A stretch of DNA of 39,747 nucleotides. Origin: a virus. The notes under the pieces were generated by a model that searched no databases, was not told the origin of the DNA, and saw only the letters and a program-made list of their open reading frames with translations. The stretch lies in IMG/VR virus record IMGVR_UViG_3300034121_000660, positions 1-39,747 of that record; one strand, given 5' to 3'. The position numbers and the translations under genes are program-made. This document shows positions 4,463 to 28,083 of this stretch, in pieces; within the stretch, counting starts at the first letter, position 1, and each line of letters starts with the position of its first letter.

Positions 4463-5220
4463 TAGGCTGCTTTCTTGAGGCGCAGATTCGCGTAGTGCAG
4501 GAACAGGCGAGCCTTGAAGTTTTCCCACAGCGGCTCTGCGGAGAAGATCCAGGAAACCTCAAAGTCGTCTGGCGACTCCTTGCCGATGCGCACGATGCCG
4601 CGGCGCTGGACTTTCATGGTCGGCCGGTTTTCGTTCCACAGCTGCTCGTAGCCAGCCAATTGGATCTTGTGCGCCGGCACGATGGCTTTGGATGTCTTCC
4701 AGTCGAGGAGCACAACCTTGCCGTCACGGTCGCGCGCGGGAGCATCGATGGTTCCTCCGAAGAGGTATTCTTCGCTGACCAGCTGGACCTCAGGCTCGAT
4801 GACCTCAAAGCCCTCCTCATCCCACCAAGTGCGGAAGTTGTTGTAGGCAATGGTCGCCTTCTCAACGTCTGCTGGGGAGAACTCCGAGAGGTCGGGCTCA
4901 TGATTGTGCAGAAAACATTCGATCATGAAGTGCGCGACCGTCCCAATATCGGCCGCCTTATCACGGACCTTCCGGTAGTCCTGCCCTTCAGTTCCAAGCT
5001 TCCATGCCCAGTGGATAAGACCGCTGGTGTCCTCACCGATCTTGGCGATAGTGCTGGCACCGGGAACGTCGGTGCCGTCTTTAAGCGGGTACTTCTGGTG
5101 AGCCCGGGTCTTTTCAAGGCGTACGATCTTGCGTCCGTCCTCGGTGAAGCGGTCGGGCTCGGCGGGTTTGACCGCCTTGGCCCTGCGCGTAGTTGCCTTG
5201 CGTGGTGTTTTGGCAGGCAT
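4462..5220 (-). CDS. RecB/Cas4-like PD-(D/E)XK exonuclease
   Basis: This is a predicted Mg-dependent exonuclease for phage recombination or end processing. In 252 residues it shows the RecB-family motifs in order: H97 in GTVAHFMIE, E142/E144, D159 in GGTIDAP, D173 and K175 in LLDWKTSK, and Q187-x3-Y191 in IQLAGYEQ. The N-terminus is basic (KTPRKATTRRAK). The start lies 5 nt after the ssDNA-binding protein gene, and the end overlaps the next gene as TAATG. The neighbours (ssDNA-binding protein, resolvase, helicase) make a recombination/replication role likely. No recombinase (Erf, Beta or RecT) is seen beside it. Confidence 0.82.
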   Translation of the reverse strand: MPAKTPRKATTRRAKAVKPAEPDRFTEDGRKIVRLEKTRAHQKYPLKDGTDVPGASTIAKIGEDTSGLIHWAWKLGTEGQDYRKVRDKAADIGTVAHFMIECFLHNHEPDLSEFSPADVEKATIAYNNFRTWWDEEGFEVIEPEVQLVSEEYLFGGTIDAPARDRDGKVVLLDWKTSKAIVPAHKIQLAGYEQLWNENRPTMKVQRRGIVRIGKESPDDFEVSWIFSAEPLWENFKARLFLHYANLRLKKAA

Positions 5221-5225
5221 GCTGG

Positions 5226-5798
5226 TTACCAGCTGATCTCTTGGTCGTCGGTGCCGGTCTTGGCCGCAGGGGCTGCGGACTCGCTCACGTCAAAGCCGTA
5301 GGCTTGCGCGCTGCCGCCGTCGCCCCAGGTAACGAGGTCAAGGACTTGCACGGCTTTCGGCTGCAGCGTGATGCCGGCGCCAAGGGATGCGGTGTACCAG
5401 CAATAAGGAACGACAGCGACTTTGAGCTTGGACCCGCCGCCGATGTTGTCGGTGATGGGCTGGCCGTCCGAGCCAAAGAGCTTCGGCTGGCGGCTGAAGG
5501 TTTCGCCTTCCTTGTTCTTGCCCATGGCTTTGACTTTGAGCTTGAGCTGGGTAAGGCCGTCGTTGTCTTCCCAAGGTGCGGCGTGCAGCTTGAGCTTGTC
5601 CTTCTTCAACTCGCGCTTCTTGTCGTCAAGGAACTCGGCGAAGATGGCTTCGACTTGCTTGATGAACGGCTCGGCGTCCTCGGAGGACATTTCAAGGTTC
5701 ACTTTGTAGACGCCAATCTCGTCGAACTTGGTGTCGGCGCGATTGAGGCTGGGATAGCGAGCGATGCCCGCGGGTGTGGTTAGGGTTTTTGTTGCCAT
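5226..5798 (-). CDS. T7 gp2.5-like ssDNA-binding protein
   Basis: This 190-residue protein begins with the typical pattern TPAGIARYPSLNRADTKF...GVYKVNL and has a lysine-rich middle (DDKKRELKKDKLKL). It ends in an acidic tail finishing with an aromatic residue (TDDQEISW), the hallmark used by gp2.5-type proteins to contact polymerase and helicase. It likely coats single strands during replication and recombination. The start is ATG after the AC/AT-rich leader CAAATAATACC, with no SD. It sits between the resolvase-like and exonuclease genes. Confidence in the family is good; partner proteins are inferred. Confidence 0.78.
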   Translation of the reverse strand: MATKTLTTPAGIARYPSLNRADTKFDEIGVYKVNLEMSSEDAEPFIKQVEAIFAEFLDDKKRELKKDKLKLHAAPWEDNDGLTQLKLKVKAMGKNKEGETFSRQPKLFGSDGQPITDNIGGGSKLKVAVVPYCWYTASLGAGITLQPKAVQVLDLVTWGDGGSAQAYGFDVSESAAPAAKTGTDDQEISW

Positions 5799-5802
5799 GG
5801 TA

Positions 5803-6168
5803 TTATTTGGTTTGTGGTTGTGGTTGTGTTTGTGTTGGTACTAGAAAATCAGAGCCGCGGAGGATGGTGAGGAAATCGTTAGCGCGCAGGGTGACCAGCC
5901 AGTCCTCGCCGGTGCGCTTGTGGGCAACGACCGGGAAGAGCTTGTCCTTGGCATCGCGGATAGCCTGGGCGAGCCAGTCTTTCACCTTGGTCACTTGGCA
6001 AAATTTTACCTCCCAGTGAATGTCTGGAAGGCAAGGGCAGACGACATCGGGCGAGTCGCCGAGGCCGCTGAACTGCTGGCCGCGGCGAATGCCGGAATCA
6101 CCGAATGCGGAGCGCAATTCATCGCGCCACATGCGTTCTCCGCGGGCTCCTTTCGCGCGGGAGTTCAT
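5803..6168 (-). CDS. Holliday-junction-resolvase-like PD-(D/E)XK nuclease
   Basis: This 121-residue protein starts MNSRAKGARGERMWRDEL. It has the Hjc/VRR-like arrangement E11, D41 in DSPDVV and E53-x-K55 in HWEVKF. The pattern RRGQQFSG---SPDVV-P-LP-IHWEVK is typical of small phage resolvases that cut branched DNA before packaging. The C-terminus is a short Q/T/P repeat (PTQTQPQPQTK). Its ATG overlaps the helicase stop (ATGA), so it is coupled to replication genes. Confidence 0.78.
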   Translation of the reverse strand: MNSRAKGARGERMWRDELRSAFGDSGIRRGQQFSGLGDSPDVVCPCLPDIHWEVKFCQVTKVKDWLAQAIRDAKDKLFPVVAHKRTGEDWLVTLRANDFLTILRGSDFLVPTQTQPQPQTK

Positions 6169-7553
6169 TTGTAAAAGACCTCCTGCATTTGACGCGATGG
6201 TGCGTAGACGGTGTCGGCGGTGTCTGTGGTGCGGTTGCCAAGCGCGGCGTTCTCAAAGCGGGTCAGCCGCGGGCGCCAGACCAAGTTGACCTTGCCAGTG
6301 GCACCGGCCCTATGTTTCGCAATGATCAACTCTGCATCCTGCGGATCGGGCTCAGTTTCTTGGTCGGCGGCGTAGTACGCAGGCCTGTGCAGTAGACAGA
6401 CCAAATCAGCATCCTGCTCAATGCTGCCACTCTCGCGGAGGTCGGACATCTTTGGGCGGTTGTCAACGGCCTTTTCTGCGTTGCGGTTTACCTGGGCGGC
6501 GGCAACGACCGGCACTCCTAGCTCCATGGCCATGGCTTTAAGTCCGCGGGAGACAAAGCCAACTTCGTTCTCGCGGGACTGGGCTCCGGCGTGGCTGACC
6601 AGCTGCAGATAATCAACAAAGATGACCTTCACGCCCCAGCGGCGGACGGCAAGACGTGCGCGGCCGCGGATGTCGAGCATCGTCAGGCCGCCGCGATCGT
6701 CAACGTAGAGGGGTTCCGTGGCGAACTGGTCGGCGGCCTGCACGATGCGGAGCTTGCTGGCGTGGTCGAGGAAGCCATTGCGAACGACCTCAATGTTGGT
6801 CTCCGCGCGGCCGAGGACAACGCGACTGGCCAGCTCGTTGGCGGGCATCTCCAGCGAGAAATACAAAGTCGGGACGCCGCGGCGGGACATGTTTTCGCAG
6901 GCGTTGAGCATCCAGGCGGATTTGCCCATGGCGGGACGGCCAGCCACGATGGTCAGCTGCCCGGGGCGCAGGCCGCCTGTGAGGTAGTCGAAGGACTTAA
7001 AGCCGGTTTCCACGCCGAGTTTGGCCCCGGGCACCATCAACTTCTCAAGCTCCTCCAGCAGGCCGGGCACGATGGCAGACGCGGGGCGCATGCTGTCAGT
7101 GGATTGCCCGAGGGAAAGCGACAAGACGGACTCGCCGGCGTCTTGAAGCACGCTGTCGGCGGGTTGCGACATATCCGATGCGGCGGACTGCAGGCGGCCA
7201 GCGGCGTTCAAGATGGCGCGGCGGGCGTGGAGGTCGCGGAGAGTCTGGACGTGGTACTCGACTGCGGCAGGGCCGCCGGCGGTGTGGGCAACCATGTCGG
7301 TCACTGCTCCGGCGCCGCCGACAAACTCAAGGCGGTCATGGCTGGCGAGGACTTGGGTCACGGCAACGATGTTTGGGACACCGCCGGCTCCGCGGATGTC
7401 GCGGATGACGCCGAAGACCTGCGCGTTGGCGGGCGTGAAAAAAAGGTCAGCGTTGAGACCGGCGATCTCGTCGATCATCCCGGGCTCAGACATGAGGGCA
7501 CCGAGCACGGCAGCTTCGACCTCCGGCGCGTTGGGAACAATTTGCTTTTTCAT
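6165..7553 (-). CDS. dnaB: Replicative DNA helicase, DnaB family
   Basis: This 462-residue protein has both DnaB domains. The N-terminal helical domain (about 1-150) begins APEVEAAVLGALM. The RecA-like motor contains Walker A GRPAMGKS (205-212), SLEM (233-236), the Walker B segment VDYLQL (313-318), the sensor QVNR (354-357) and DLRESGSIEQDAD (371-383). The length is normal. It unwinds the fork and probably needs loading by the initiator encoded at 8991-9833. The start overlaps the stop of a 30-residue membrane-peptide gene (TAATG), and the end overlaps the resolvase gene (ATGA). Confidence 0.95.
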   Translation of the reverse strand: MKKQIVPNAPEVEAAVLGALMSEPGMIDEIAGLNADLFFTPANAQVFGVIRDIRGAGGVPNIVAVTQVLASHDRLEFVGGAGAVTDMVAHTAGGPAAVEYHVQTLRDLHARRAILNAAGRLQSAASDMSQPADSVLQDAGESVLSLSLGQSTDSMRPASAIVPGLLEELEKLMVPGAKLGVETGFKSFDYLTGGLRPGQLTIVAGRPAMGKSAWMLNACENMSRRGVPTLYFSLEMPANELASRVVLGRAETNIEVVRNGFLDHASKLRIVQAADQFATEPLYVDDRGGLTMLDIRGRARLAVRRWGVKVIFVDYLQLVSHAGAQSRENEVGFVSRGLKAMAMELGVPVVAAAQVNRNAEKAVDNRPKMSDLRESGSIEQDADLVCLLHRPAYYAADQETEPDPQDAELIIAKHRAGATGKVNLVWRPRLTRFENAALGNRTTDTADTVYAPSRQMQEVFYK

Positions 7554-8297: not shown

Positions 8298-8464
8298 GGC
8301 CGGGGCTCCTTGCTGCGGGTCTCTTTCAAGGCAAGTTGAAGAGCCATAACGCTGGAACTGATGTCCGCGAGCAGCTTGTCAACGAGTTTGGCGTTGATAG
8401 TGGGACGGCCGTTCTCGCGGGTGACTGCGGGGGGCTTTTTCTTGGTGGGTGTTTTGGTTTTCAT
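8294..8464 (-). CDS. Hypothetical small basic protein
   Basis: This 56-residue protein begins MKTKTPTKKKPPAVTRENGR: a disordered basic head followed by a helix (LVDKLLADISSSVMALQLAL). I chose ATG 8464, which overlaps the upstream nuclease stop as ATGA, over the ATG 11 codons earlier. The basic head suggests nucleic-acid contact. No family is recognised. Confidence 0.55.
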   Translation of the reverse strand: MKTKTPTKKKPPAVTRENGRPTINAKLVDKLLADISSSVMALQLALKETRSKEPRP

Positions 8465-8994
8465 ATGTGAACAAAAGTACAGTGGGGGGTAGGACATTGG
8501 CTGTCCCAGGCTATAAAGGGTTTTTGATTTGCGGTTAGGGATTCTGCGACCTCGTCTAGAAGGTTCCAGTTGCCCGGCTGGCGGTGGCGGGCAGGGCTGT
8601 AGCGAACCTTCTGCCGGCCGCGGATGTCCTCGAAAGACCAGAAGACGAATTGGTTCCGGTCGGGGAGGTAGGCGGCGAGGATGTCGAAGTCGCCCGCGGC
8701 GTAGGGTCGCTGCGTGGGTCCACGGCCGCGCTTGGTTGGGATGCAGTATTCGCCGCGCTCTAAGCAGGCTGTCTTGACTTGCACGGTCAGTCGCAAGTTG
8801 CCGCGGACCAAAACCCAGTCGGCCGTGTGGTCGTGGCCGAAGGCTTTGAAGATTTCCCAGTCGTAGACGATGCAGCCGGCGATGAAGAGAGCCTCGGTGA
8901 GGTCGCCGCGGCGGCAGTCGGAGAGCTTCCGGGCGGCTGCTTCGGAGACGGGCGCGTTGAGCCCCTCGCAGATGGCGAAGATTGCCTGGGTCAT
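8461..8994 (-). CDS. I-Ssp6803I-like PD-(D/E)XK endonuclease (copy A)
   Basis: This 177-residue protein fits the group-I-intron endonuclease-like PD-(D/E)XK family. Candidate active-site residues are E34, D59 (HTADWVLV), Q72 and K74 (VQVKTA). Their spacing (25, 13, 2) is the one I recall for I-Ssp6803I (E11, D36, Q49, K51). A second block, GDFDILAAYLPD (from residue 101), is shared with the protein at 10186-10701. It is freestanding and no intron is visible. It is coupled on both sides by ATGA overlaps, directly downstream of the initiator gene. Likely a DNA nuclease; the target is unknown. Confidence 0.68.
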   Translation of the reverse strand: MTQAIFAICEGLNAPVSEAAARKLSDCRRGDLTEALFIAGCIVYDWEIFKAFGHDHTADWVLVRGNLRLTVQVKTACLERGEYCIPTKRGRGPTQRPYAAGDFDILAAYLPDRNQFVFWSFEDIRGRQKVRYSPARHRQPGNWNLLDEVAESLTANQKPFIAWDSQCPTPHCTFVHI

Positions 8995-9833
8995 GCGACT
9001 CCTCTCATGCGCTCTTCCTGCAGGGCTTCGAGCGCCATCATGCGCTTCTCAGCCTCCGAGGGCTGCACGGGTCCGGTGCGGGGGATGTGGAGGACTTTTG
9101 CGGTCTCCTTGGGGGCGTCGAGGAACACGCCGCGCCAGCCGTGCTTGACGGATTTGCGGAGGGCTTCGACGGCGGCAACTTCGTTCACGGCGGCCAGATC
9201 GGCAACGATGCGCTGGGCGGCTGTTGGGGTGAGCGGGGCTTTGATCTCTCGTCGGTGTTGCGCGAATTCTGCCCAGGCGTTGGCGAGGCCGGCGCTGTGG
9301 GGCAGGGGAAGGTTGGCGGGATCGAACTTGGCTGGCTTCGGACGCGGAACTGCTACAGGGGAAGAAGAAGGTGGCGAAGGCAACGCAGTTGCCGGAGCTG
9401 GCGCGTCAGCGCTACGTTCTTCCTGTTCTTTATGTTTCTTTATGTTGGGGTCTAAATCTTGGACCACTTGGGTCCAGCGTTTAGACCACTTGGGTCCAGC
9501 ATTTAGACCACTTGGGTCTAAATCTTGGACCGGTCTAAGTTTTAGACCCATCTCGGAAACGCCGGGGATTTTCCAGATCGAAGCCTCGGCGCCGTCGCCG
9601 GCCAGCTTGCGGTGGCCTTTTTCGACCATGACTAGGTGGCCAGCATCGCGGAGTCGCTTGAGGCTGTTGGCGACCGTGGCGCGGCACAGGCGGGTCTTCT
9701 GGCAGAGCTTGCCCCAGGAGCCGAAGCAGTTGCCGTCCTCGTCGGCGAAGTCGGCCAAGGCCAGCAGGACAAGCCGGTCGGAGCCCTCGACGGTGCTGAC
9801 GTACCAGACAAAGTTGGTGGCAGCGACAGACAT
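8991..9833 (-). CDS. Replication initiator, lambda-O-like, HTH domain
   Basis: This 280-residue protein has an N-terminal winged-helix domain (about 10-90: VLLALADFADEDG, then GSWGKLCQKTRLCRATVANS, then RLRDAGHL), as in phage replication initiators and replisome organisers. The middle (about 95-130) is encoded by four 22-bp DNA repeats, followed by a proline/alanine linker and a C-terminal helical domain (AWAEFAQHRREIKAPLTP onward) that may contact the helicase. The layout repeats that of lambda O, whose gene contains the origin. It starts in a TGATG overlap and ends in ATGA with the nuclease gene. No Walker motif is present, so it is not a DnaC-type loader. Confidence 0.75.
   Translation of the reverse strand: MSVAATNFVWYVSTVEGSDRLVLLALADFADEDGNCFGSWGKLCQKTRLCRATVANSLKRLRDAGHLVMVEKGHRKLAGDGAEASIWKIPGVSEMGLKLRPVQDLDPSGLNAGPKWSKRWTQVVQDLDPNIKKHKEQEERSADAPAPATALPSPPSSSPVAVPRPKPAKFDPANLPLPHSAGLANAWAEFAQHRREIKAPLTPTAAQRIVADLAAVNEVAAVEALRKSVKHGWRGVFLDAPKETAKVLHIPRTGPVQPSEAEKRMMALEALQEERMRGVA
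9426..9445 (+). repeat. AT-rich tandem 10-mers (probable unwinding element)
   Basis: TTCTTTATGT is repeated exactly in tandem (9426-9435 and 9436-9445) in an otherwise GC-rich gene. It lies 2 nt from the iteron block, on its downstream side in the direction of initiator transcription. That is the position of the AT-rich unwinding region in the lambda origin. Function is inferred from layout. Confidence 0.6.
9448..9550. repeat. Four 22-bp iterons inside the initiator gene (putative ori)
   Basis: Units begin at 9448, 9470, 9492 and 9514, each opening GGGTC on the plus strand. The first three end in GACCACTT; the fourth runs into an inverted element, GGTCTAA-gt-TTTAGACC, at 9532-9549. Each junction forms a near-palindrome such as TTTAGACC-acttg-GGTCTAAA (9502-9522). 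Because 22 is not a multiple of 3, the copies are read in different frames and encode different peptides, so the DNA itself is conserved, not the protein. This matches initiator-binding iterons in the lambda O gene. Confidence 0.72.
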
Positions 9834-10189
9834 CAGCCGCGCCTCCCAAATTTGTTCCGGTGGGCGCCCTTGGGGCCGTCGAACTCAAGGGTGCCGTCCG
9901 GGCGGACTCTGGCAAAGCGGACCTTGATCCGGTCGTTGGTCCTCCAGTCTTCCTTGGTCTGGACGTAAGTGACGGCGGGGCCATCGAAACCGGGGGGCAG
10001 GATGAAGAGCATCTTAGGGTGGGGGCAGGACTTCACTGAGACGGCCGCGGTGACCTCCTCGCCAACAGCAAAGGGGGCGCCGGTGGGCTTGGGGGCGGTT
10101 TCTTGGGCGGCTGCAGGCGGTGGCCCAGGGGTGGCTTCGGGTTGCCCTCTGAAGGTGTCGGTGGCTTTTTTGATTAGTTCGTTGATCAT
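9833..10189 (-). CDS. Hypothetical protein, proline-rich head and beta-rich tail
   Basis: This 118-residue protein begins with a short helix (MINELIKKATDTF), then a P/A/T-rich linker (about 20-40), then a predicted beta-rich domain (PFAVGEEVTAAVSVKSCPHP to GTLEFDGPKG) with a basic end (HRNKFGRRG). The folded part could be an OB- or SH3-like nucleic-acid binder. It lies between the second PD-(D/E)XK gene and the initiator, joined by ATGA and TGATG overlaps, so a replication accessory role is possible. No family is recognised. Confidence 0.6.
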   Translation of the reverse strand: MINELIKKATDTFRGQPEATPGPPPAAAQETAPKPTGAPFAVGEEVTAAVSVKSCPHPKMLFILPPGFDGPAVTYVQTKEDWRTNDRIKVRFARVRPDGTLEFDGPKGAHRNKFGRRG

Positions 10190-10701
10190 AAGTTGTGCTT
10201 CAGCGCGTCCTCGATGACGTGCCAGTTGTTGAGGGTTGAGAGGTCGCGGAAGCTCACGGTGCCTTGATCGGCCACGTCCCTAAGTAGGTAAAATCGAAAC
10301 GCTTTGGCCGGTGGGACAAAGGCCGCAAGCACATCAAAGTCGCCGATCTTGTATCGCTGGTATTTATCCAACTCGCGCCCATCGTGTTTGGCCTTGGCCA
10401 ATTGGCTCCCGCCGCGGCTCGCAGCAACGTGGACCCTCCATCCGCCTTGGCGAAACGCTGCGCGCTTAACCTGCACGGTTATTGGCCGATAGGGTGGGCG
10501 CCAGATAATGGCATCAGCCTTTTGACTGTGACCAATGGGAACCCATGTGACGTAGCCCTGCTCCCTAGCGGCTGTCAGCATGCACAGCTCTTCGTAGGAG
10601 CCATCGTTGCCCATGGGATCGTGTTCCGGCAGAATTACCGGAACTGTAACCCCCTTGACGTCAAACAGGTATTCGGGCGAGTCTTCGGCGATGGTTAGCA
10701 T
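10186..10701 (-). CDS. I-Ssp6803I-like PD-(D/E)XK endonuclease (copy B)
   Basis: This 171-residue protein is related to the nuclease at 8461-8994. Candidate catalytic residues are E38 (GSYEELCML), D63 (KADAIIW), Q77 and K79 (VQVKRA), and the GDFDVLAAFVPP block starts at residue 120. About 30 extra residues precede the catalytic core compared with copy A. It is the first gene after a 153-nt gap, so a promoter may lie just upstream. Its stop overlaps the next gene (ATGA). Two such paralogs around one initiator gene is unusual. Confidence 0.65.
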   Translation of the reverse strand: MLTIAEDSPEYLFDVKGVTVPVILPEHDPMGNDGSYEELCMLTAAREQGYVTWVPIGHSQKADAIIWRPPYRPITVQVKRAAFRQGGWRVHVAASRGGSQLAKAKHDGRELDKYQRYKIGDFDVLAAFVPPAKAFRFYLLRDVADQGTVSFRDLSTLNNWHVIEDALKHNL

Positions 10702-15652: not shown

Positions 15653-16786
15653 TCAACCCGCCGGTCTAGGAGCGGGCGCCGCTGGCGATTCAGTAGACCA
15701 GACGCCTGCGATGTCGACCTCGCGGTCATAGACGGCGTACCAGGTCGAGGTGGTGGTCGGGGAGCTGTGGCCGAGCATGTGCTGCGCCACGCTGATCTTG
15801 CCGGTCGCGTTCAAGATATCCGAGCCCGCCTGCCGCCGCAGCTCGTAGGCGGCCGTGCGCCTATCCGGCAGGAACTCCCGGACGAAGGCATTAAAGATCC
15901 GCTCCATGAAGAACTTCCGGCGCCCCGGGGTCTTGCCGTCCACCATAAAGTCCTCCGCGGCGAGCAGCTCCGCGGCCATCCACTCGGGGATGGACATGGC
16001 GCGGCCGCGCTTGCTGCCGGTCTTGAGCGTCACGCCGTCACGCTCGATGACCACCATGACGAACTTCCCGTTGCGCTCCTCGATCCACGCCTTGCGGCAG
16101 AGCGAGCACTCCTTCGGCGTCATGCCGAGATACCGCGTCAAGAGGAACGCCCGCCGGATGGCCGGTGCCCGCTGCTTGCTCGCCCGGTCCATGCCATCAA
16201 GTATGGCCGGAGCAATCCGCTCAAAGGTGGGCGAGGGGGCGCGCATCCCTTTGGTTGTCTTGGCAAACTTCTCCAAGGACTCCGGCAGCGGAAAGCCCTC
16301 CCAGTCCAGTGCGTGGCAGAACACGGCGCGGGCCGACACCAGCACGCCCCTCAGCGTGTAGATGCTGCCCTTCCAGTCGGCTAGATACTTGGCCACCAAG
16401 GCCGGGGTTAGCACACTCAGCGGCTTGGCCCGCACCTGCTCATTAGTTCCGCCCAGCGTGCCGCGGAGCAGACGCAGTAGGCGGTTGACATTGCTGTGCC
16501 GACTAGCAATCTTGCTCACCCTCAAATAATGGTCAATCGCCTCACCAATCGACTTACATGTCGCCCGCTGCTGGTGCGCCTGCAGCGCCGCCAGACCCTC
16601 GCGGCCGGCATCGACCAAGATGCCCTTGGCCTTCTCCTTGGCCATGACCAGGTCGCGCAGGCCGGTCGAGATCCGCAGCCGGCGCCGGGTGTGCGGGTGT
16701 CGGAATTCCAGCTGCCACCGCGGCGAGTCGTTGACCTGATAGAGCTTTCCGGTCAGCCCAGCCGCTTGAATTTTGTGCGTATCCAT
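15653..16786 (-). CDS. int: Tyrosine-recombinase phage integrase
   Basis: The protein is 377 residues from ATG 16786 (a 16-codon longer frame begins with TTG inside the arm repeats). It has an N-terminal arm-binding and SAM-like core region (about 75-190) and a catalytic domain with LKTGSKRGR (Lys 255), YELRRQAGSD (Arg 317), LGHSS (His 340) and Tyr 350 in STWYAV. The box that normally reads G-(L/M)-R-x-x-E appears as LGMTPKE (220-226), with threonine at the usual first-arginine position, and the usual His of HxxR is tyrosine. It lies beside the tRNA-derived attachment site, convergent with the small rightward genes. It would integrate and, with a Xis protein, excise the phage. Confidence 0.88.
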   Translation of the reverse strand: MDTHKIQAAGLTGKLYQVNDSPRWQLEFRHPHTRRRLRISTGLRDLVMAKEKAKGILVDAGREGLAALQAHQQRATCKSIGEAIDHYLRVSKIASRHSNVNRLLRLLRGTLGGTNEQVRAKPLSVLTPALVAKYLADWKGSIYTLRGVLVSARAVFCHALDWEGFPLPESLEKFAKTTKGMRAPSPTFERIAPAILDGMDRASKQRAPAIRRAFLLTRYLGMTPKECSLCRKAWIEERNGKFVMVVIERDGVTLKTGSKRGRAMSIPEWMAAELLAAEDFMVDGKTPGRRKFFMERIFNAFVREFLPDRRTAAYELRRQAGSDILNATGKISVAQHMLGHSSPTTTSTWYAVYDREVDIAGVWSTESPAAPAPRPAG

Positions 16787-16825
16787 ACCGTGACTAATAG
16801 CACGGCGGTCAAACCCTGCCAAGGC

Positions 16826-16860
16826 GTCTGGCAAAAGTTGGCGCAGAGTCTGACAGAAAA
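16826..16860 (+). repeat. Two arm-type integrase-site repeats, left of core
   Basis: GTCTGGCAAAA (16826-16836) and GTCTGACAGAAAA (16848-16860) are direct repeats between the integrase start and the tRNA-like core. The second, with its upstream GGCGCAGA, matches 18 of 21 positions of the repeat at 17005-17024. Direct repeats flanking an attachment core are typical arm-binding sites of tyrosine integrases. Confidence 0.6.
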
Positions 16861-16934
16861 TGGGTCAAACCAAGTGCAATCAGATAGCACTAAATCACAA
16901 GATTTGCTCTGTTCTACAGAGAAAAGAGGGATTC

Positions 16935-16973
16935 GGCTAGGTAGCTCAGTTGGCAGAGCAGAGGACTGAAAAT
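16935..16973 (+). other. attP: 5' half of tRNA-Phe(GAA), attP core candidate
   Basis: The 39 nt run from a GGCTAGG acceptor strand through T8, a complete D-arm (GCTC...GAGC), and an anticodon stem GAGGA with loop CTGAAAA, where GAA is the phenylalanine anticodon. After one more base the sequence leaves tRNA: the 3' anticodon strand should read TCCTC but reads TGCCC, and no T-arm or acceptor 3' strand follows. With the integrase on one side and arm repeats on both, it is best read as the attP identity block. Most tRNA-targeting phages carry the 3' half instead. Confidence 0.7.
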
Positions 16974-17004
16974 GCCCCGACTTACTGTGTAGGATTGCCA
17001 CTCT

Positions 17005-17024
17005 GGCGCGGAGTCTGGCAAAAA
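17005..17024 (+). repeat. Arm-type repeat, right of core
   Basis: This direct repeat contains GTCTGGCAAAAA (17013-17024) and a GGCGCGGA lead, matching 16840-16860 at 18 of 21 positions. It overlaps the U-tract of the late terminator, placing an integrase arm site at the end of the late operon. Confidence 0.58.
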
Positions 17025-17049
17025 GAAAGGGCCAGCCGTGGCTGACCCT
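17019..17049 (-). terminator. Intrinsic terminator of the late operon
   Basis: On the minus strand a stem of GGGTCAGCC / GGCTGGCCC with an AC loop (one mismatch; 17029-17048) is followed by TTTCTTTTT. It comes about 30 nt after the stop of the giant virion gene. This should end leftward late transcription before attP and the integrase. Confidence 0.75.
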
Positions 17050-17077
17050 TAGTCTCCTTCCGGGCGTGCCGGATGAG

Positions 17078-20000
17078 CTATTTTATTCCGAGGTTGCGCA
17101 ATTCCGCGGGCGAAAGAGAAAGCAGCTCAGTGTTGGCGTCTAGGAAGCCGCGGCTAAGCCGAACTCCTCCTCCAGCATCTCCTTGACTCCCTGCACCTGC
17201 GCCAGCGTCACCTTGTCCGGTCCGCCGCTTTCCTCGACCGACAGATCCAGCAGCCGATTTACGACGGCTTCTTGTGTCGGCGACAACTTGTCCAGGGTTT
17301 CCCCGAACACCTTGTCCACCTTGCTCAATAATTTCTCGTAGGCTTTTTGTTCTAAGTTCATCGTTTCCTCTCCATTTCATTAGGGTGATTTCTGGCAGGC
17401 CAGTGCCTTCATCCCACCCAATAGATTTCCAGTATTTCTTTAGGTCTGCAAGTTCCAACTTGCTGTAAAAGGACGGGTCAAACGGGATGTTCCCAGTAGG
17501 CTCAAATCCGTATGACGCATAAAGTTTTGGCAGCATGCCCTTCGGATATTTCTCCGACTTTACCGCAAAGCAATCGAGCGCCGTGACGCCTAGCTGCAGC
17601 GCTTTAATAACCACTGCGTCCGCCATTCCGCCCGTCTTGCGCTCGTTGTTAAGCACTAGCGAAAGCGTCTTCTCGTTAGGGCCGAAGCCAAAGGCCGCGG
17701 GGTCTTGACCGTAGGCAGAAGCGGGGTCGCCCTGCTTAATGCCGAAGAACACCTGAGCGTCAGCGAGCTGGTAAATGGACATGTCGCCGGCCTCAAGTTT
17801 TTCCTGCAGGCTTTTTAGCGTGTAGCGATCAAGGGCCAGCTTCGCCGGCGATGCGTTGAGTGCGTCGATAAATGCCGCCGGTGATACGCCGCCAGCTTTT
17901 ACGGTTTGCTCGGACGACTTCCAGCTGTCGTTCTTGGCGATATTGATCAGCTGCGCATGCCGCGGCGAGCGGAACGACCTGTATGGCGTGCCGGGAATGC
18001 GCGACGCGATGGCGTCAGTGATCTCTTGCACTGGCTTGGCTAGGTCAAAGGCGCGTCGGTCTCCAAGCTCTGGCTTGCCATCAGCGCGACGCTGCGCGTA
18101 GAAGTCGTCGAAAATTGAGTTGATGTTGATGGGGCGCGCAAACCGTCCAATTACCCGGCCCCGCAAACCGTACTGATACGAAGGATGTTTAAGCGTGCCC
18201 TGCTCACCGAGCTTTACCGCGGTAGCCCCGGGCGTCAGCTCGATAGCCAGCACAGCATCACCGATGCGCAGCCCGTCGTATTGGTCGGAGCGCACCTCAT
18301 CTAAAATGCGCTGCACGTTAGGCGCGCCAAGATCCTGCGATTTTTTTGACTCAAGGATTTCAGCAATGCGTGCGCGACTCTTGGCGCCCTGAAACGGCAG
18401 CTTGTTGACGTATTCCATGATGCTCGGCGATTCAATGCCGGGAAAATCTTCAATTTCCCTGCGGATGGAGTTGTCGAGAGTGGCCAAATTTTCCGGCGTG
18501 ATGCGTCCGTCGCGAGCATACGCTGCATTTGTTGCAATCACCGCGGTTGCCGTCTCGGTGTTGCTGACGTGCGCGTTTTTATCCATTGCGGCGACGAGCA
18601 TAATGGCCCCCTCGTTGGCGCGGCGCGCCTTGATGGCCGACACACCAGCACCCTGGTTTGACCACACGTTTGTTTCCTCGCCGACTTTCTCAGCCTGCAG
18701 CAATGGCCACTCAGGTCCGCCGTGCGTCTCAACCGGGACGGCAATCTCGCTTGAGTCAATGCCGCGGTAAATCTTGCCGGCGCTTGTCAGGTCTGCAAAC
18801 GCCGCGAATACCTTGCGGCCCTTGAGATCTTTCAGTGTGATAACAGGAGCGTCCTGCAGTGTTCGCCACACCGCCCCGCCTTCGTCGTTAACCGCCACAT
18901 CGGGCATAAACTGCGCTTGCGCCCGGTACATGCCCTCATGCGTTGTCTCAATGCCTTTCGACTTGTCCCAGAGCCAGTGGTGCATGACGTGCGACCAGAC
19001 CTCTTGGCTAATGCTTGCCCCGCCCGGAACCTCGTCCCGCAAGGCGTTGATTCGTTGGTCAATGCGCCGGAACATCTCTTGGCTAACGCGCCGGTCGCTT
19101 ATTGACTCCTTGACGCTGCGCGCCAGCGTTGCCTTGCGCGTGTTGAGCTTGCCGATGTCGGCTTTGCCGGTCAGCCAGAAGTTGATTTCGACCGCATCAA
19201 TGGTCGGCACGTCGCCGATTCCAAGCAGGTGCGCGATAAATCCCTTCTTGCCCGTCTTGATGCCGCGGAGCTGCTGAACGGCGTCCATCACCTTGCCGGT
19301 GTCCGCGCGGCTGGCGTTTAAGTCGGCCAGCACCTTGTCCATTGTGCGGATGTTGTCAGGGTTGAACGCACCGAGGTTGTTGAAGCGGTCATCCCCGTAT
19401 GCTTTGCGAATGGCGACAAGCTCCTTCCAGTCGTCTGGGCTAAAGCGGCCGGCCTCAAAGTTGTCTAGAGCCTTCTGCCCGGCGTCGGTGCCAAGCCAAT
19501 ACGCCGCGGCCTCCTCAGGACGGATGGCTGCGCGGCCCTTTTTGTCCGCCGTTGTAAAGTCTTTCGATGGGCGGAACCGGACGCCATCCTTGGCCACGTT
19601 GTTGGCAATGACCTCAACGGCCCGGGCGCCAGAACCCTGCGAGGCGATGGTCATGGCATAAGCCTTCATCACGTCGCGCCGGGTCATCTGACCGTTGGCA
19701 AGTTTTTGCCGCTGGTCGGTGATGAATTGCGCGACTGGGCGAAGATACTCAGGAAATCCCCCGACAACCTCCGCAGCAACTTTTGTTGGAATGAATTGCG
19801 AGCGCCTGAGCTGGTCAAGGGTCTCGACGGCGCCTGAACGAGCCTCCGCATCCGGCATCGCCTGCCCACGCCGCGCCCCGCCACGCTCAAGCCCCGGGGG
19901 ATCTTCCAACAGCTCAGACGGCCGGCGCCCGCTATCGTACACCTCGCGGTTATGGCGCGCCGCTGCGGCCCGCGATTCGCTCGGCGTCTCTCCCATGGGA

Positions 20001-23000
20001 TTGTCCATGGTGTCTGAGCCAAAGCGGAAGAAGCCGTCCTCGCTAATGCTGCCGGCGCCGATGGCTAAGAAGTCCGGCCCAAGATCCTCGTTGGTCTCAA
20101 AGTGCGTACGCTTGTTGGTGCTGACCACACGGCCGTCTGCGCCGACAAACGCGGCGCGCCTGGCTCGCTCGTTAAGCGGGATGTCTGCGCGCTCGCCATA
20201 GCCCACATCCGGCATCCCCTGAGCCCCCCGCGGGATCTGCTGGGGCATGCGGTTGTTGTTCTCCTTGTCGTAATCGAAGAAGTAGCCGGTGCGTCCGGTA
20301 GACTTAGCATCGTTGAGCCGGTCCACGCGCCAAGTGCGCAGGCTGCCCTTGGGGTTCAACTCTGCGTAAAGGGGATTGGCCGCGCGCTGGACGGCCGTGC
20401 CGGTGCCAATAAGTCCGTTGAGGATGTCTCGCTTGGCTTGACCAATGGTCGCCTCGCCGGGACGGCCTTCGCGGTGATTGGCCAGCCGAATTTTTAGGTC
20501 AGCCTCGACCTGCTTCATGTCGTTGTTGAAAATGCCGAGTTCGCCCCTGTTGATTGCCTTCATGGTCGCCGCGCGGAAGGCGTTGAGGTCAATAGCCACG
20601 GCCAGCAAATGGTTGGCCTTGGATACCTGCCAGCCGAGCGGCACGGTCTCGCGCTGGATAGCGCGCACGTTGCCCATGTTGGTGATGCGGTAGCGTCCAC
20701 TTGATCCGGTGCCAATGGCGTTGTAGTCGATGTCCCAGCTTCCGCCCTCGGCGCGGCTGGCTTCCATGCCCCGGGCAAACTGGCGGACGTGCTGCGGGAA
20801 CTGCGTGAAGAGGTCAAACTGCGGCGGCAGCACCGGCCCGCCTATCACCTCGCGTCCGTTGACCTTGCGCTTGCCGAATTCGGTTGAGTTAACCGGCACA
20901 AACTTCTTGGCATCGTACAGCGTCTTGATCTGCGCTGCGCGGTTGGCCTCGGCGGCATTGATGATCGGCTGCGGCTTGTAGGCATAGGTGCCGTCCGCTT
21001 TTTGGAACAGGAAGTCATTCTCGAGGACACCGCGGCCCTCGTCCCGCAGCTTGACGTGTGTGCTGCGAGCCATGTCCTGTGGGCGGCTGCTCCGCGCCAG
21101 CTCCACGCCCCGGGGTGTTGCGCTGCCGGCCTCCTCGAGGCCGACCAAGTACTGATCGTAGGCGCGCACATATTCCTTCACACGCTTCTGCATGATGCGG
21201 TCTTGGAAGAGCGGGTTGTCGCGGAAGAGGACAGACGGATTGTCCAGCATCTTGCCGGTGCCGCCGTCCAGCCGCACACCCATCACCTCCAGCACGCGCC
21301 CGCCGGCGGCCAGCATTGACTCGGCCAAGCGTGGAAACGCCCCGTCACGGCGGATGCCGCGGAAGTCAATGGCCGGAGCCTCGCTGGCAAACGTCTCGGC
21401 GATCACCTCGTCGCGCGCCCAGTCCAGGGCGTCCTCGCCGCGCTCAATGCTGCGCTGCGACAGTTCCTCGTAGCGTTCGTTGATCAGCCTTTCGCGCTCG
21501 CTCGGCTCCAGCTTGCGGCCCTTGGCAATGTCTGACGGCGACTTGTTGCCGCTCTCAAGGTCGCGGAACTCCTGCTCAGTGAGCACTTGGGGCAGCTCCC
21601 CGGTTGTTCCGTTTTGAATGTCTCCATCGACCAAGCGGCCGACATACTCGCGGCCGCGGGCCTGCACGCCGTCCGCCCCATACTGCTGGTTGACCAAGTT
21701 GCGCAGATCGTTGCGCGGCTGACCGTCCAAAATGTTGCTGGTCAGGATGGCGTGGCCAATCTCATGCGGCACGATGGCCCCGACACCGCCGGCTGACTTG
21801 CGTGCGTCGAGATTGATGAAGACCCTGGCGCGTCCGTTGGCGTCCTTCTCGAGGAACAGTCCCGCGGCCAACTCGCCGCCGGTCGCCGAGACATCCTTGT
21901 TCATCCGGTATTCGTCCGCCTTGAGAGGAACAAAGTCCACCTTGCCTGCCAGCACGCCCTGCATGGCCGCCATGCGGTCCAGTGAGGCATGCGGCAGCGC
22001 CGAGAGGGCATCCACATTGCCGCCCACCGCATAGACATCGGCCATCATCCGAGCCACGTCTGCGTCCGGTGCCGTGCTCCGGCGACCTATGGCACCGCCG
22101 ACCAGTCCTCCGACACCGCCGAGGGCCATGATGCCGCCGAAGACCTCACCGGCGCGCTCGGCATCCGGCTGCAGGGCCGCAAAGGGGGCTCCGGTGATCC
22201 CGGCCGCCACTGCCCCGCTGGTCACGTCATCAGCTAGGCGCGCCGCTGTGGTCACGCCAGCGCGGTCGGCAAAGCGAGCCACACGGCGCAGTGCCTCGGG
22301 GTTGCCAGCGTCCTGCGCCACCCGCTTGAGTGTGCTATCGGTGCCGTCAACGTAGCCTGTAAAGTATTTGCGGTAGCGCTCAGGGATTGCCGTCATGCGC
22401 GCCAAGTCAGCCGCTGCTTCCGCCCGGGCCGTGCCGATGCCGCCCACACCTGCCTCGCGGATGATGGTCGCCGCACCGCCCGCCGCCGCGCCGGTCCTGC
22501 GGATGATCGCACCGCCGTAGCGCAGCCCCGGCAGCACGCTGCCCAGGGCCGTCACCGCGGCGGTCACATTGCCCCCGCCGCCCGCTGCGTCCGCATAGAC
22601 CGCCGCACCGGCCGCACCGGCGCCTAGTGCCGCCTGCTGCTTGGCCGTCAGTCCGGTAATGTCCTGCACGCGGCTGCTGATACCAAACTCCATCCGCTCG
22701 GCGAGGTCTGCCGTGGCATCCGCCGCACGCTGCACGCCTCGGAGCGGAGCGCCGGCTAGGGTCGCCGTCCGCCGTAGCACACGCAGCTTGCTCAGCGCGC
22801 CCGCACCCAGAGGCACCAAGTTGACCGGGTCGAGGGCCATTGAGCCGATCATCGACAGCGTCTCCGCGGGTTGCTCGTCGGTGATCTGGTAAGCCTCTTT
22901 GCTGGTCGCTGGCGCCGTCACCTTGCTGGCACCCACTTGAAAATCTGTCACTCCTGCGAACTCCTGCTCCAGCGACTTCTCGCGCTGGTAGCGATCATAA

Positions 23001-23743
23001 GCCTTGTCGAAGTCCTCTTCCTCCTCCACCGGCGTTGGCTCCATGGCGTCCGCCTCGCTGGCCGCTGCGGCAATGATGTTGGCGTCCTGCAGCTCATCGC
23101 CGGTCAGCTTGCCTTCCTGCTCAAGACGCTTGGCCAATGCTTGATGCTTCAGCCCGCGCCGCTTCGCCCAGGTCGTGGCGTCATCGACCTTGTTGCCCAC
23201 CCAGTCAAAGAGCTGCACCATGTTGATGCCGGCCTTGCGGATAGTTTCTGCGCCGGTCTGCACGTTGCGCTGCACTTGGTTGACCGGATCGGTCACCATG
23301 CCGACCATGCCGTCGCGGATCTCGCGTCCGGCCTCGGGGATCATGGCGAGCATGCCCGCGGCGCCTTGTCCCACGCCTTCAATAAAACGGCCGACCTCGT
23401 TGTTCTCCTCCGTCCGCCGTGTCCAGTACTGCCGGAACTCCTCCTGCGGCATGATGTAGTCCACGCGGCGGTAGTTTTCCTCCTCGAGCTGGTTCAGCTC
23501 GTAGTCCGTCATCGGCTCCGGCTCCGCGGGAGCTTCGGGCGGTAGGGCAATGCCACGCTCGCGGGCAAACGGCGTGGAGGCCAGCACTGGCAGCGCATCA
23601 AGCTCCCGGTCAGTAAAGCCCTGAGCCGGAGCGGGGGATGCGGCAAGGCGATCTACCAGCCCGGTGGTGATCTCCGGCTGTCCCTGCTGCGCTTCCAATG
23701 CGGCCAGCTCTTTGTCAGTCAGTCCTATCGTACCTGGTACCAT
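17078..23743 (-). CDS. Giant multidomain ejection / polyvalent virion protein
   Basis: This 2221-residue protein is the largest gene. The N-terminal 100 residues hold repeats of the type LTDKELAALE, FTDRELDALP and MTDYELNQLE. Gly/Ala-rich hydrophobic stretches follow (around 370-425 and 545-570), suggesting membrane insertion. A zincin motif HEIGH at 660-664 (IVPHEIGHAI) predicts a protease. The middle has a region HLLGIGDVPTIDAVEINFWL and WSHVMHHWLWDKSKG seen in phage polyvalent and internal virion proteins, and the C-terminal part (LDCFAVKS...LPKLYASYGF) resembles a GNAT-like domain. It probably enters the host with the DNA. The start overlaps the previous gene by 19 nt. The last 90 residues are overprinted by another frame. 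Confidence 0.75.
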   Translation of the reverse strand: MVPGTIGLTDKELAALEAQQGQPEITTGLVDRLAASPAPAQGFTDRELDALPVLASTPFARERGIALPPEAPAEPEPMTDYELNQLEEENYRRVDYIMPQEEFRQYWTRRTEENNEVGRFIEGVGQGAAGMLAMIPEAGREIRDGMVGMVTDPVNQVQRNVQTGAETIRKAGINMVQLFDWVGNKVDDATTWAKRRGLKHQALAKRLEQEGKLTGDELQDANIIAAAASEADAMEPTPVEEEEDFDKAYDRYQREKSLEQEFAGVTDFQVGASKVTAPATSKEAYQITDEQPAETLSMIGSMALDPVNLVPLGAGALSKLRVLRRTATLAGAPLRGVQRAADATADLAERMEFGISSRVQDITGLTAKQQAALGAGAAGAAVYADAAGGGGNVTAAVTALGSVLPGLRYGGAIIRRTGAAAGGAATIIREAGVGGIGTARAEAAADLARMTAIPERYRKYFTGYVDGTDSTLKRVAQDAGNPEALRRVARFADRAGVTTAARLADDVTSGAVAAGITGAPFAALQPDAERAGEVFGGIMALGGVGGLVGGAIGRRSTAPDADVARMMADVYAVGGNVDALSALPHASLDRMAAMQGVLAGKVDFVPLKADEYRMNKDVSATGGELAAGLFLEKDANGRARVFINLDARKSAGGVGAIVPHEIGHAILTSNILDGQPRNDLRNLVNQQYGADGVQARGREYVGRLVDGDIQNGTTGELPQVLTEQEFRDLESGNKSPSDIAKGRKLEPSERERLINERYEELSQRSIERGEDALDWARDEVIAETFASEAPAIDFRGIRRDGAFPRLAESMLAAGGRVLEVMGVRLDGGTGKMLDNPSVLFRDNPLFQDRIMQKRVKEYVRAYDQYLVGLEEAGSATPRGVELARSSRPQDMARSTHVKLRDEGRGVLENDFLFQKADGTYAYKPQPIINAAEANRAAQIKTLYDAKKFVPVNSTEFGKRKVNGREVIGGPVLPPQFDLFTQFPQHVRQFARGMEASRAEGGSWDIDYNAIGTGSSGRYRITNMGNVRAIQRETVPLGWQVSKANHLLAVAIDLNAFRAATMKAINRGELGIFNNDMKQVEADLKIRLANHREGRPGEATIGQAKRDILNGLIGTGTAVQRAANPLYAELNPKGSLRTWRVDRLNDAKSTGRTGYFFDYDKENNNRMPQQIPRGAQGMPDVGYGERADIPLNERARRAAFVGADGRVVSTNKRTHFETNEDLGPDFLAIGAGSISEDGFFRFGSDTMDNPMGETPSESRAAAARHNREVYDSGRRPSELLEDPPGLERGGARRGQAMPDAEARSGAVETLDQLRRSQFIPTKVAAEVVGGFPEYLRPVAQFITDQRQKLANGQMTRRDVMKAYAMTIASQGSGARAVEVIANNVAKDGVRFRPSKDFTTADKKGRAAIRPEEAAAYWLGTDAGQKALDNFEAGRFSPDDWKELVAIRKAYGDDRFNNLGAFNPDNIRTMDKVLADLNASRADTGKVMDAVQQLRGIKTGKKGFIAHLLGIGDVPTIDAVEINFWLTGKADIGKLNTRKATLARSVKESISDRRVSQEMFRRIDQRINALRDEVPGGASISQEVWSHVMHHWLWDKSKGIETTHEGMYRAQAQFMPDVAVNDEGGAVWRTLQDAPVITLKDLKGRKVFAAFADLTSAGKIYRGIDSSEIAVPVETHGGPEWPLLQAEKVGEETNVWSNQGAGVSAIKARRANEGAIMLVAAMDKNAHVSNTETATAVIATNAAYARDGRITPENLATLDNSIRREIEDFPGIESPSIMEYVNKLPFQGAKSRARIAEILESKKSQDLGAPNVQRILDEVRSDQYDGLRIGDAVLAIELTPGATAVKLGEQGTLKHPSYQYGLRGRVIGRFARPININSIFDDFYAQRRADGKPELGDRRAFDLAKPVQEITDAIASRIPGTPYRSFRSPRHAQLINIAKNDSWKSSEQTVKAGGVSPAAFIDALNASPAKLALDRYTLKSLQEKLEAGDMSIYQLADAQVFFGIKQGDPASAYGQDPAAFGFGPNEKTLSLVLNNERKTGGMADAVVIKALQLGVTALDCFAVKSEKYPKGMLPKLYASYGFEPTGNIPFDPSFYSKLELADLKKYWKSIGWDEGTGLPEITLMKWRGNDELRTKSLREIIEQGGQGVRGNPGQVVADTRSRRKSAAGSVGRGKRRTGQGDAGAGAGSQGDAGGGVRLSRGFLDANTELLSLSPAELRNLGIK
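17140..17361 (-). CDS. Overprinted small acidic helical protein
   Basis: This 73-residue protein lies wholly inside the 3' end of the giant gene in another frame. It starts with ATG preceded by AGAGGA, and reads MNLEQKAYEKLLSKVDKVFG, then LSPTQEAVVNRLLDLSVEES, ending EMLEEEFGLAAAS. It looks like a well-formed acidic helical protein. In the same stretch the giant protein is a poor G/A/R/Q-rich linker, suggesting this frame carries the stronger constraint. No family is recognised. It could be a separate virion or chaperone-like protein. Confidence 0.55.
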   Translation of the reverse strand: MNLEQKAYEKLLSKVDKVFGETLDKLSPTQEAVVNRLLDLSVEESGGPDKVTLAQVQGVKEMLEEEFGLAAAS

Positions 23744-27450: not shown

Positions 27451-28083
27451 CTAAAACTTGATGCAATAGAGCATGGCGATGTTCTTTGGTCGGGTTTCGG
27501 TGCCGCCAGTGGAACCCGTTGTTCGCGCAAGGTCACTTGCTCCGTCCTGTCCGGTTCCTCCAGCTACATTAAACTGTCCATTGCTGACAGCGATTTGGTC
27601 GGTATAGCCGTGCGTGTGACTCTTAAAGGCATCCGCCTGTTTAGCGCCGAACGTCCCTGCCTCCGTGCCGTCGCCGTTGGTTCCGCTGCCGCGCACGAAG
27701 TAGCCGCGTAGATCCGGCAGCGCAAAGGTCGTGCTGCCGTCGCCCGCGCCATAGGTCGTGCTGATGGCGGCGAAGAGCGCGGCGTAGGTGCTGCGGCTTA
27801 CGGCGGTGCCGTCTGCTGCCAGCCAGCCAGCGGGGGCGCTGTTCATGGCGAAAGACATCACCGCTCCCGCCGGAAGAGAGATTGTGGCCGGAAGCGTGAC
27901 CGTCTTGCTGCTCAAGTTCAGCGTTGCGGCAAGTTTTGCGTCCGTCACGTTGGCGTCCAAAATCTTCGCGGTCGTGACCTCGTTGTCAGCGACCACCACA
28001 GTCGGCGCGGCGGTCGTGTTTAGTTTGGCGGGGGTGACGGTCTCGCCTGAGACCCAGTTGTAAGATGCGGTTACTGTTGCCAT
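27451..28083 (-). CDS. Tail fibre with phage tail collar domain
   Basis: This 210-residue protein has an N-terminal virion-attachment part (TASYNWVSGETVTPAKLNTT), a short repeat (NEVTTAKILDANVTDAKLAA), and a tail collar domain (PAGAVMSFAMNSAPAGWLAA to FALPDLRGYFVRG). It ends with the usual SHTHGY and ETRPKNIAMLYCIKF. Such proteins form trimeric fibres or tips that contact the host. It is short, so it may be a tip or adaptor. The leader has no SD (GAACAAAATC before ATG). Directly downstream of the tail nozzle gene. Confidence 0.82.
   Translation of the reverse strand: MATVTASYNWVSGETVTPAKLNTTAAPTVVVADNEVTTAKILDANVTDAKLAATLNLSSKTVTLPATISLPAGAVMSFAMNSAPAGWLAADGTAVSRSTYAALFAAISTTYGAGDGSTTFALPDLRGYFVRGSGTNGDGTEAGTFGAKQADAFKSHTHGYTDQIAVSNGQFNVAGGTGQDGASDLARTTGSTGGTETRPKNIAMLYCIKF

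Follow-up and report, generated by a model that had tools for sequence, protein, structure and literature searches.

A tRNA-Phe 5′ half as the very probable attP core of a temperate Verrucomicrobiota phage

Elements that integrate at tRNA genes carry part of their target, and this part is usually the 3′ one: among 3919 islands in Islander, 3760 hold a 3′ tDNA fragment and 159 a 5′ fragment (PMC4383910). Phages of 3′ polarity, which include mycobacteriophages (PMC10865867), cross over in the anticodon loop, have arm sites and an integrase gene next to attP, and rebuild the tRNA while keeping the native host promoter. In tRNA-dependent lysogeny, described for mycobacteriophage Fionnbharth (PMC10865867), the integrase likewise acts at a tRNA gene, through a core of about 10 bp; the host gene is left unrepaired, and a tRNA encoded by the phage substitutes for it. 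Archaeal pTN3-like integrases use the 5′ half of a tRNA, which after restoration is cut off from its original promoter (PMC5495485, PMC8371274), a situation that is seldom met in bacteria according to a review (PMC8371274).

Here, we analyse a phage DNA window (the whole stretch of 39,747 nucleotides) in which a tRNA-Phe 5′ half lies beside a tyrosine integrase gene. The arrangement resembles the Islander 5′ islands, in which a tyrosine integrase acts at a tRNA gene, the 5′ part comes with the element and displaces a 5′ fragment. It differs from them in that attP is found in free phage records, in a Verrucomicrobiota-associated clade with three tRNA targets that is known from attP forms. In contrast to pTN3, in which attP lies inside the integrase gene, which integration splits, attP is here outside the integrase gene, which points away from the tRNA. 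The window phage shares the anticodon-loop crossover, arm sites, neighbouring integrase gene and rebuilt tRNA proposed below with the 3′-polarity phages, but it has the 5′ half where they carry the 3′ half. Unlike in tRNA-dependent lysogeny, its core measures 38–39 bp and no complete tRNA accompanies it. The 5′ strategy, which a preliminary description of this DNA treated as exceptional, is indeed rare, but it is already documented (PMC4383910, PMC8371274); the window adds to it a clade of bacterial phages with three targets.

Anatomy of the attP site

Positions 16935–16972 read GGCTAGG-TA-GCTC-AGTTGGCA-GAGC-A-GAGGA-CTGAAAA and constitute the 5′ half of tRNA-Phe(GAA), running from the acceptor strand (GGCTAGG) through the D arm and the 5′ anticodon strand (GAGGA) to the 7-nt loop CTGAAAA, which contains the anticodon GAA. 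T16973 matches as well; tRNA likeness then ends, and GCCCCG follows. The features of the site are as follows.

15653–16786, minus strand: tyrosine integrase gene (377 amino acids), start codon (ATG at 16786) adjoining attP
16787–16934, plus strand: integrase-proximal arm, presumed place of the tRNA promoter (from geometry)
16826–16836, plus strand: arm-type repeat GTCTGGCAAAA in the integrase-proximal arm (repeat count against shuffles)
16848–16858, plus strand: arm-type repeat GTCTGACAGAA in the integrase-proximal arm (repeat count against shuffles)
16912–16921, plus strand: motif TTCTACAGAG, probable protein-binding site (comparable sequence in Thr- and Met-type sites, differing in some Phe-type sites)
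16935–16973, plus strand: attP core, tRNA-Phe(GAA) 5′ half plus T16973 (identical in seven Phe-type attP sites)
16966–16972, plus strand: anticodon loop CTGAAAA, predicted 7-bp overlap (crossover) region (from where host-tRNA identity stops in all Phe-, Thr- and Met-type sites)
16974–17026, plus strand: attP distal arm, phage side past the crossover (sequence and comparison of relatives)
17013–17023, plus strand: arm-type repeat GTCTGGCAAAA in the distal arm (repeat count against shuffles)
17027–17050, minus strand: terminator-like hairpin between attP and the leftward gene at its right (scan of the attP region)

The coordinates in the preliminary description, both for the tRNA identity (16935–16973) and for the arm-like repeats flanking it, proved exact, as did the position of the integrase gene, on the minus strand to the left of attP with its start directly beside the site. 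The repeat GTCTGRCARAA occurs three times in the window (16826, 16848 and 17013) and nowhere else in it, against 0.05 copies expected from shuffles; its copies lie on both sides of the core and are putative integrase-binding sites. Across the whole 39.7-kb window, the next best match to the 38-mer core is 23/38. The 34-nt 3′ half of tRNA-Phe is missing from the window (best match 20/34), and a complete tRNA-Phe was looked for with ARAGORN, which found no tRNA in the whole record, a record classed as possibly a fragment.

To the right of attP lies a leftward reading frame of 2221 codons (17078–23743, minus strand), which has no Pfam match at E 0.001 and is probably a large virion protein. Elsewhere in the window, minus-strand replication and recombination genes encode an exonuclease (4465–5220), a Gp2.5-like single-strand binding protein (5229–5798), a DnaB-like helicase (6168–7553) and a replication initiation protein (8994–9833). 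Two further minus-strand genes, 8464–8994 and 10189–10701, both match phrog_5018, a family of unknown function, and the product of the former also matches a PD-(D/E)XK endonuclease model.

The integrase

The integrase matches the PHROG integrase family phrog_1 (E 1.3e-16); its match to Pfam PF00589 (E 7.5e-5) is under the curated cut-off of that family. The attP core falls outside the integrase frame even with the longest possible start, at 16834. Searches with the protein gave no match among phage records and none among PDB sequences, and an AlphaFold model built with 10 sequences had a pLDDT of 51.6, too low for a fold search. In all integrases of the window's clade, the first catalytic arginine is replaced, with LGMTPKE where more distant relatives (G097, G127 and G319) have GLRxxE; the same arginine is missing from IntDOT of Bacteroides. 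The Phe-type phages (L002–L006 and L012) are alike over the integrase gene and attP. Since their similarity ends just past the distal arm (window positions around 17060–17120), the att-int unit looks like a cassette swapped among otherwise unlike phages.

Related attP sites and the probable host

Scans of IMG/VR recovered integrase relatives at 62–100% identity, and the resulting comparison set of 16 attP sites (the window and its IMG/VR relatives) spans three integrase subclades. All 16 hold tRNA 5′ halves, each ending at the anticodon loop and placed directly upstream of the integrase gene. The relatives are all attP forms, in which phage sequence continues past the loop. The target follows integrase identity: tRNA-Phe(GAA) at 90–100%, tRNA-Thr(CGT) at about 70% and tRNA-Met(CAT) at about 64%. 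In the seven listed Phe-type sites the 38 tRNA-Phe bases are invariant, and both arms vary. The overlap is most likely the seven-base loop, because identity stops at its end in all sets. The anticodon loop is a standard crossover place for tyrosine integrases, and the unusual crossover that the preliminary description entertained is not needed.

In four Met-type sites (L020–L023) the D-stem pair 12–23 is altered on both sides, from GCTC/GAGC to GCAC/GTGC; a fifth (L025) keeps GCTC/GAGC. We searched 384 Verrucomicrobiota genomes with a pattern permitting either base at positions 12 and 23. Matching tRNA-Met genes were found in 73 genomes, all with GCTC/GAGC, and the paired change of L020–L023 was not among them. 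This change agrees with selection that keeps the D arm of the phage-borne half functional, though a host outside the sample may carry it too.

A tRNA-Phe pattern search of GTDB genomes found the exact sequence GGCAGAGCAGAGGACTGAAAATCCTC in at least three Verrucomicrobiota-type MAGs (L047, L082 and L091) among the 80 matches listed. The tRNA-Phe genes of these three equal the window block through position 39 (39 bp), and each matching genome has one copy. The phage tRNA-Met halves likewise match Verrucomicrobiota genes exactly. Because both the Phe and the Met halves have exact counterparts there, we infer a host in Verrucomicrobiota.

Model of integration

Taken together, the block is very probably the attP core of a temperate Verrucomicrobiota phage whose tyrosine integrase recombines in the tRNA-Phe anticodon loop with 5′ polarity. 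The phage would carry the tRNA 5′ half on its integrase-proximal arm, and crossover would probably occur in the seven-base anticodon loop. Integration would move the host 5′ half, together with its native promoter, to the far end of the prophage. The 5′ half from the phage would be fused to the remaining 3′ half of the host gene, leaving a restored tRNA beside the integrase gene and transcribed away from it. The model builds on the layout of attP, on the recurrence of this layout in relatives with three targets and on the full junction set in distant relatives; from these we infer the integrated form of the window phage, its exact cut sites and a phage promoter, as well as the host.

Both polarities among distant relatives

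The proposal of a phage-supplied 5′ half finds good support in the comparison, both in every attP site of the set and in integrated distant relatives; for the window phage itself, the search met no integrated member of its integrase clade. The genome search for prophages with this integrase, which the preliminary description had suggested, was run with the integrase and with a 34-mer on GTDB samples and IMG/VR, and it returned only attP forms or distant relatives. These distant relatives, in Verrucomicrobiota genomes, have integrases with 22–28% mutual identity (in one alignment), and the integrases of the integrated examples are only about 25% identical.

Some relatives use the 3′ half, so polarity cannot be assumed from the family alone. 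Two show ordinary 3′ polarity at both ends: G125, in tRNA-Val, with nucleotides 30–77 displaced 40.7 kb away, and G127, in tRNA-Thr-TGT, with nucleotides 31–75 displaced 54.5 kb away. In G097:C45 and G309, tRNA-Lys(CTT) 3′ halves adjoin the integrase gene, and the 3′ layout is also seen in G097:C52, where the tRNA-Thr(CGT) is complete. The 5′ polarity is seen in G319, G457 and G459 (tRNA-Lys-CTT) and in G519 (tRNA-Thr-CGT); both of these tRNAs are thus met in both polarities among family members. A tRNA-Ser site (G152) is arranged as expected for 5′ polarity, but a displaced copy was not found up to the contig end. Two genomes with tRNA fragments in other layouts (G366 and G038) were excluded.

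Whichever the polarity, the tRNA half belongs to the integrase-proximal arm; what changes is solely the orientation of the tRNA with respect to the integrase gene. On an integrase tree labelled by polarity, parsimony gives three changes; the starred branches force only one, the backbone being unresolved. The anticodon stem-loop is nearly palindromic, and a tyrosine integrase may be able to use it in either direction, which would give rise to both polarities.

A junction series at tRNA-Lys(CTT)

The most complete set of 5′-polarity states comes from tRNA-Lys(CTT). At empty sites, a complete tRNA-Lys and the matched portion of a divergently oriented permease gene are 93 (G472), 124 (G476) or 231 bp (G466) apart. 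The attP form (G457:C219) has the 5′ half between the integrase-side arm and the distal arm GGTGGCGTTACCGAAAACGCTAC. In the restored gene (G319 and G459:C188), a complete tRNA adjoins the integrase gene, whose transcription runs away from the tRNA. The displaced half is represented in G456 by a 36/38 copy of nucleotides 1–38, located 108 bp from the same permease and followed by distal-arm-like sequence; the displaced halves in G457:C199 and G459:C265 are followed by the conserved distal arm. The last of these contigs holds the restored tRNA (439–512), an integrase fragment (612–689) and the displaced half (27686–27723) together. In G319, which has a tandem array, a second 5′ half (89100–89137) is followed by another integrase fragment. 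Synteny with G389 places the host permease of G319 near 108 kb; the ancestral host 5′ half was not found in this genome, and the copy at 89.1 kb is part of a tandem element. Pooled across genomes, the series shows a 5′ half of phage origin fused to the 3′ half of the host gene, and the original host 5′ half left next to the host flank.

Insertion at this gene has happened repeatedly in one Verrucomicrobiota family, whose genomes show elements that are intact, arranged in tandem or decayed (G319:C58, G389:C72, G390:C150 and G459:C265); integrase fragments there lie directly upstream of tRNA-Lys(CTT).

The presumed promoter of the restored tRNA

Five tRNA-Lys genes (in G338, G217, G285, G472 and G260b) have a common upstream sequence with a plausible promoter, recognized by eye as TTGATT, a 17-bp spacer and AAAATA. 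Occupied or scarred sites have other upstream sequences, either the integrase-side arm motif TTCAACAGCATT or a near variant of it (G319, G390, G470, G388 and G459) or a degenerate integrase start sequence (G477, G467 and G260a by eye, G390 by tblastn). In G470, G388 and G390, an intact tRNA-Lys follows sequence resembling a phage arm, and the integrase gene is largely or wholly gone. The tRNAs of G470 and G388 are still complete, which makes it probable that the sequence now upstream of them has promoter activity.

For the window phage, just 148 bp (16787–16934) would separate the restored tRNA from the divergent integrase gene upstream. This arm is the presumed place of its promoter because it is the sole phage DNA that would lie between the integrase gene and the restored tRNA after integration. 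The preliminary description had the phage supplying promoter-proximal sequence; this follows from the geometry, but a scan of the attP region recognized no promoter and no sigma-70 consensus. We dropped TTCTACAGAG as a candidate −10 region, given that several Phe-type sites have TTCATCAGAG in its place; similar motifs flanking the core on both sides in one 3′-type relative speak further against it.

Alternative explanations

The overlap of the attP core with a host tRNA gene, of which the phage has only half, would also be seen if integration disrupted tRNA-Phe and a complete tRNA of the phage's own compensated, as in Fionnbharth (PMC10865867). The possibly incomplete record leaves room for such a tRNA elsewhere, but the record holds none, and the core, at 38–39 bp against the roughly 10 bp used in that system, is long enough for rebuilding the tRNA; we regard this explanation as very improbable. 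Still harder to credit is ordinary 3′ polarity, with the record as one end of an integrated prophage and the 5′ half as its displaced remnant. On one side, a displaced 5′ fragment next to phage DNA would look similar; a prophage end would run into host DNA, however, whereas phage sequence with arm-type repeats lies on both sides of the block, and this two-armed layout is kept in 15 other sites.

The invariance of the half among Phe-type phages and the paired changes that preserve the Met-type D stem could also suggest a transcribed tRNA-like element or an infection decoy that is no att core at all. Both observations are equally expected if the half must yield a functional tRNA after integration, and the arm sites and adjacent integrase gene point to recombination, as does the use of a like block as a junction by distant relatives; a decoy role accordingly appears most unlikely. 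An attP core of 5′ polarity remains our preferred reading of the block.

Implications for host tRNA genes

In the usual arrangement, the host tRNA promoter stays in place and the phage repairs only the end of the gene. A temperate phage of the present kind would instead provide the promoter as well as the first half of tRNA-Phe, a presumably essential gene with a single copy in each matching genome, and host translation would consequently depend on prophage DNA. The tRNA-Lys lineage, with its empty, occupied and scarred sites, makes the proposed replacement of a tRNA promoter testable. We tentatively suggest that one Verrucomicrobiota phage integrase family may use the same tRNA anticodon loops in either polarity, that its 5′ members may swap in a phage promoter and that these swaps may persist as scars after the element decays. 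If so, host tRNA promoters would have been repeatedly rewired by phages in Verrucomicrobiota.
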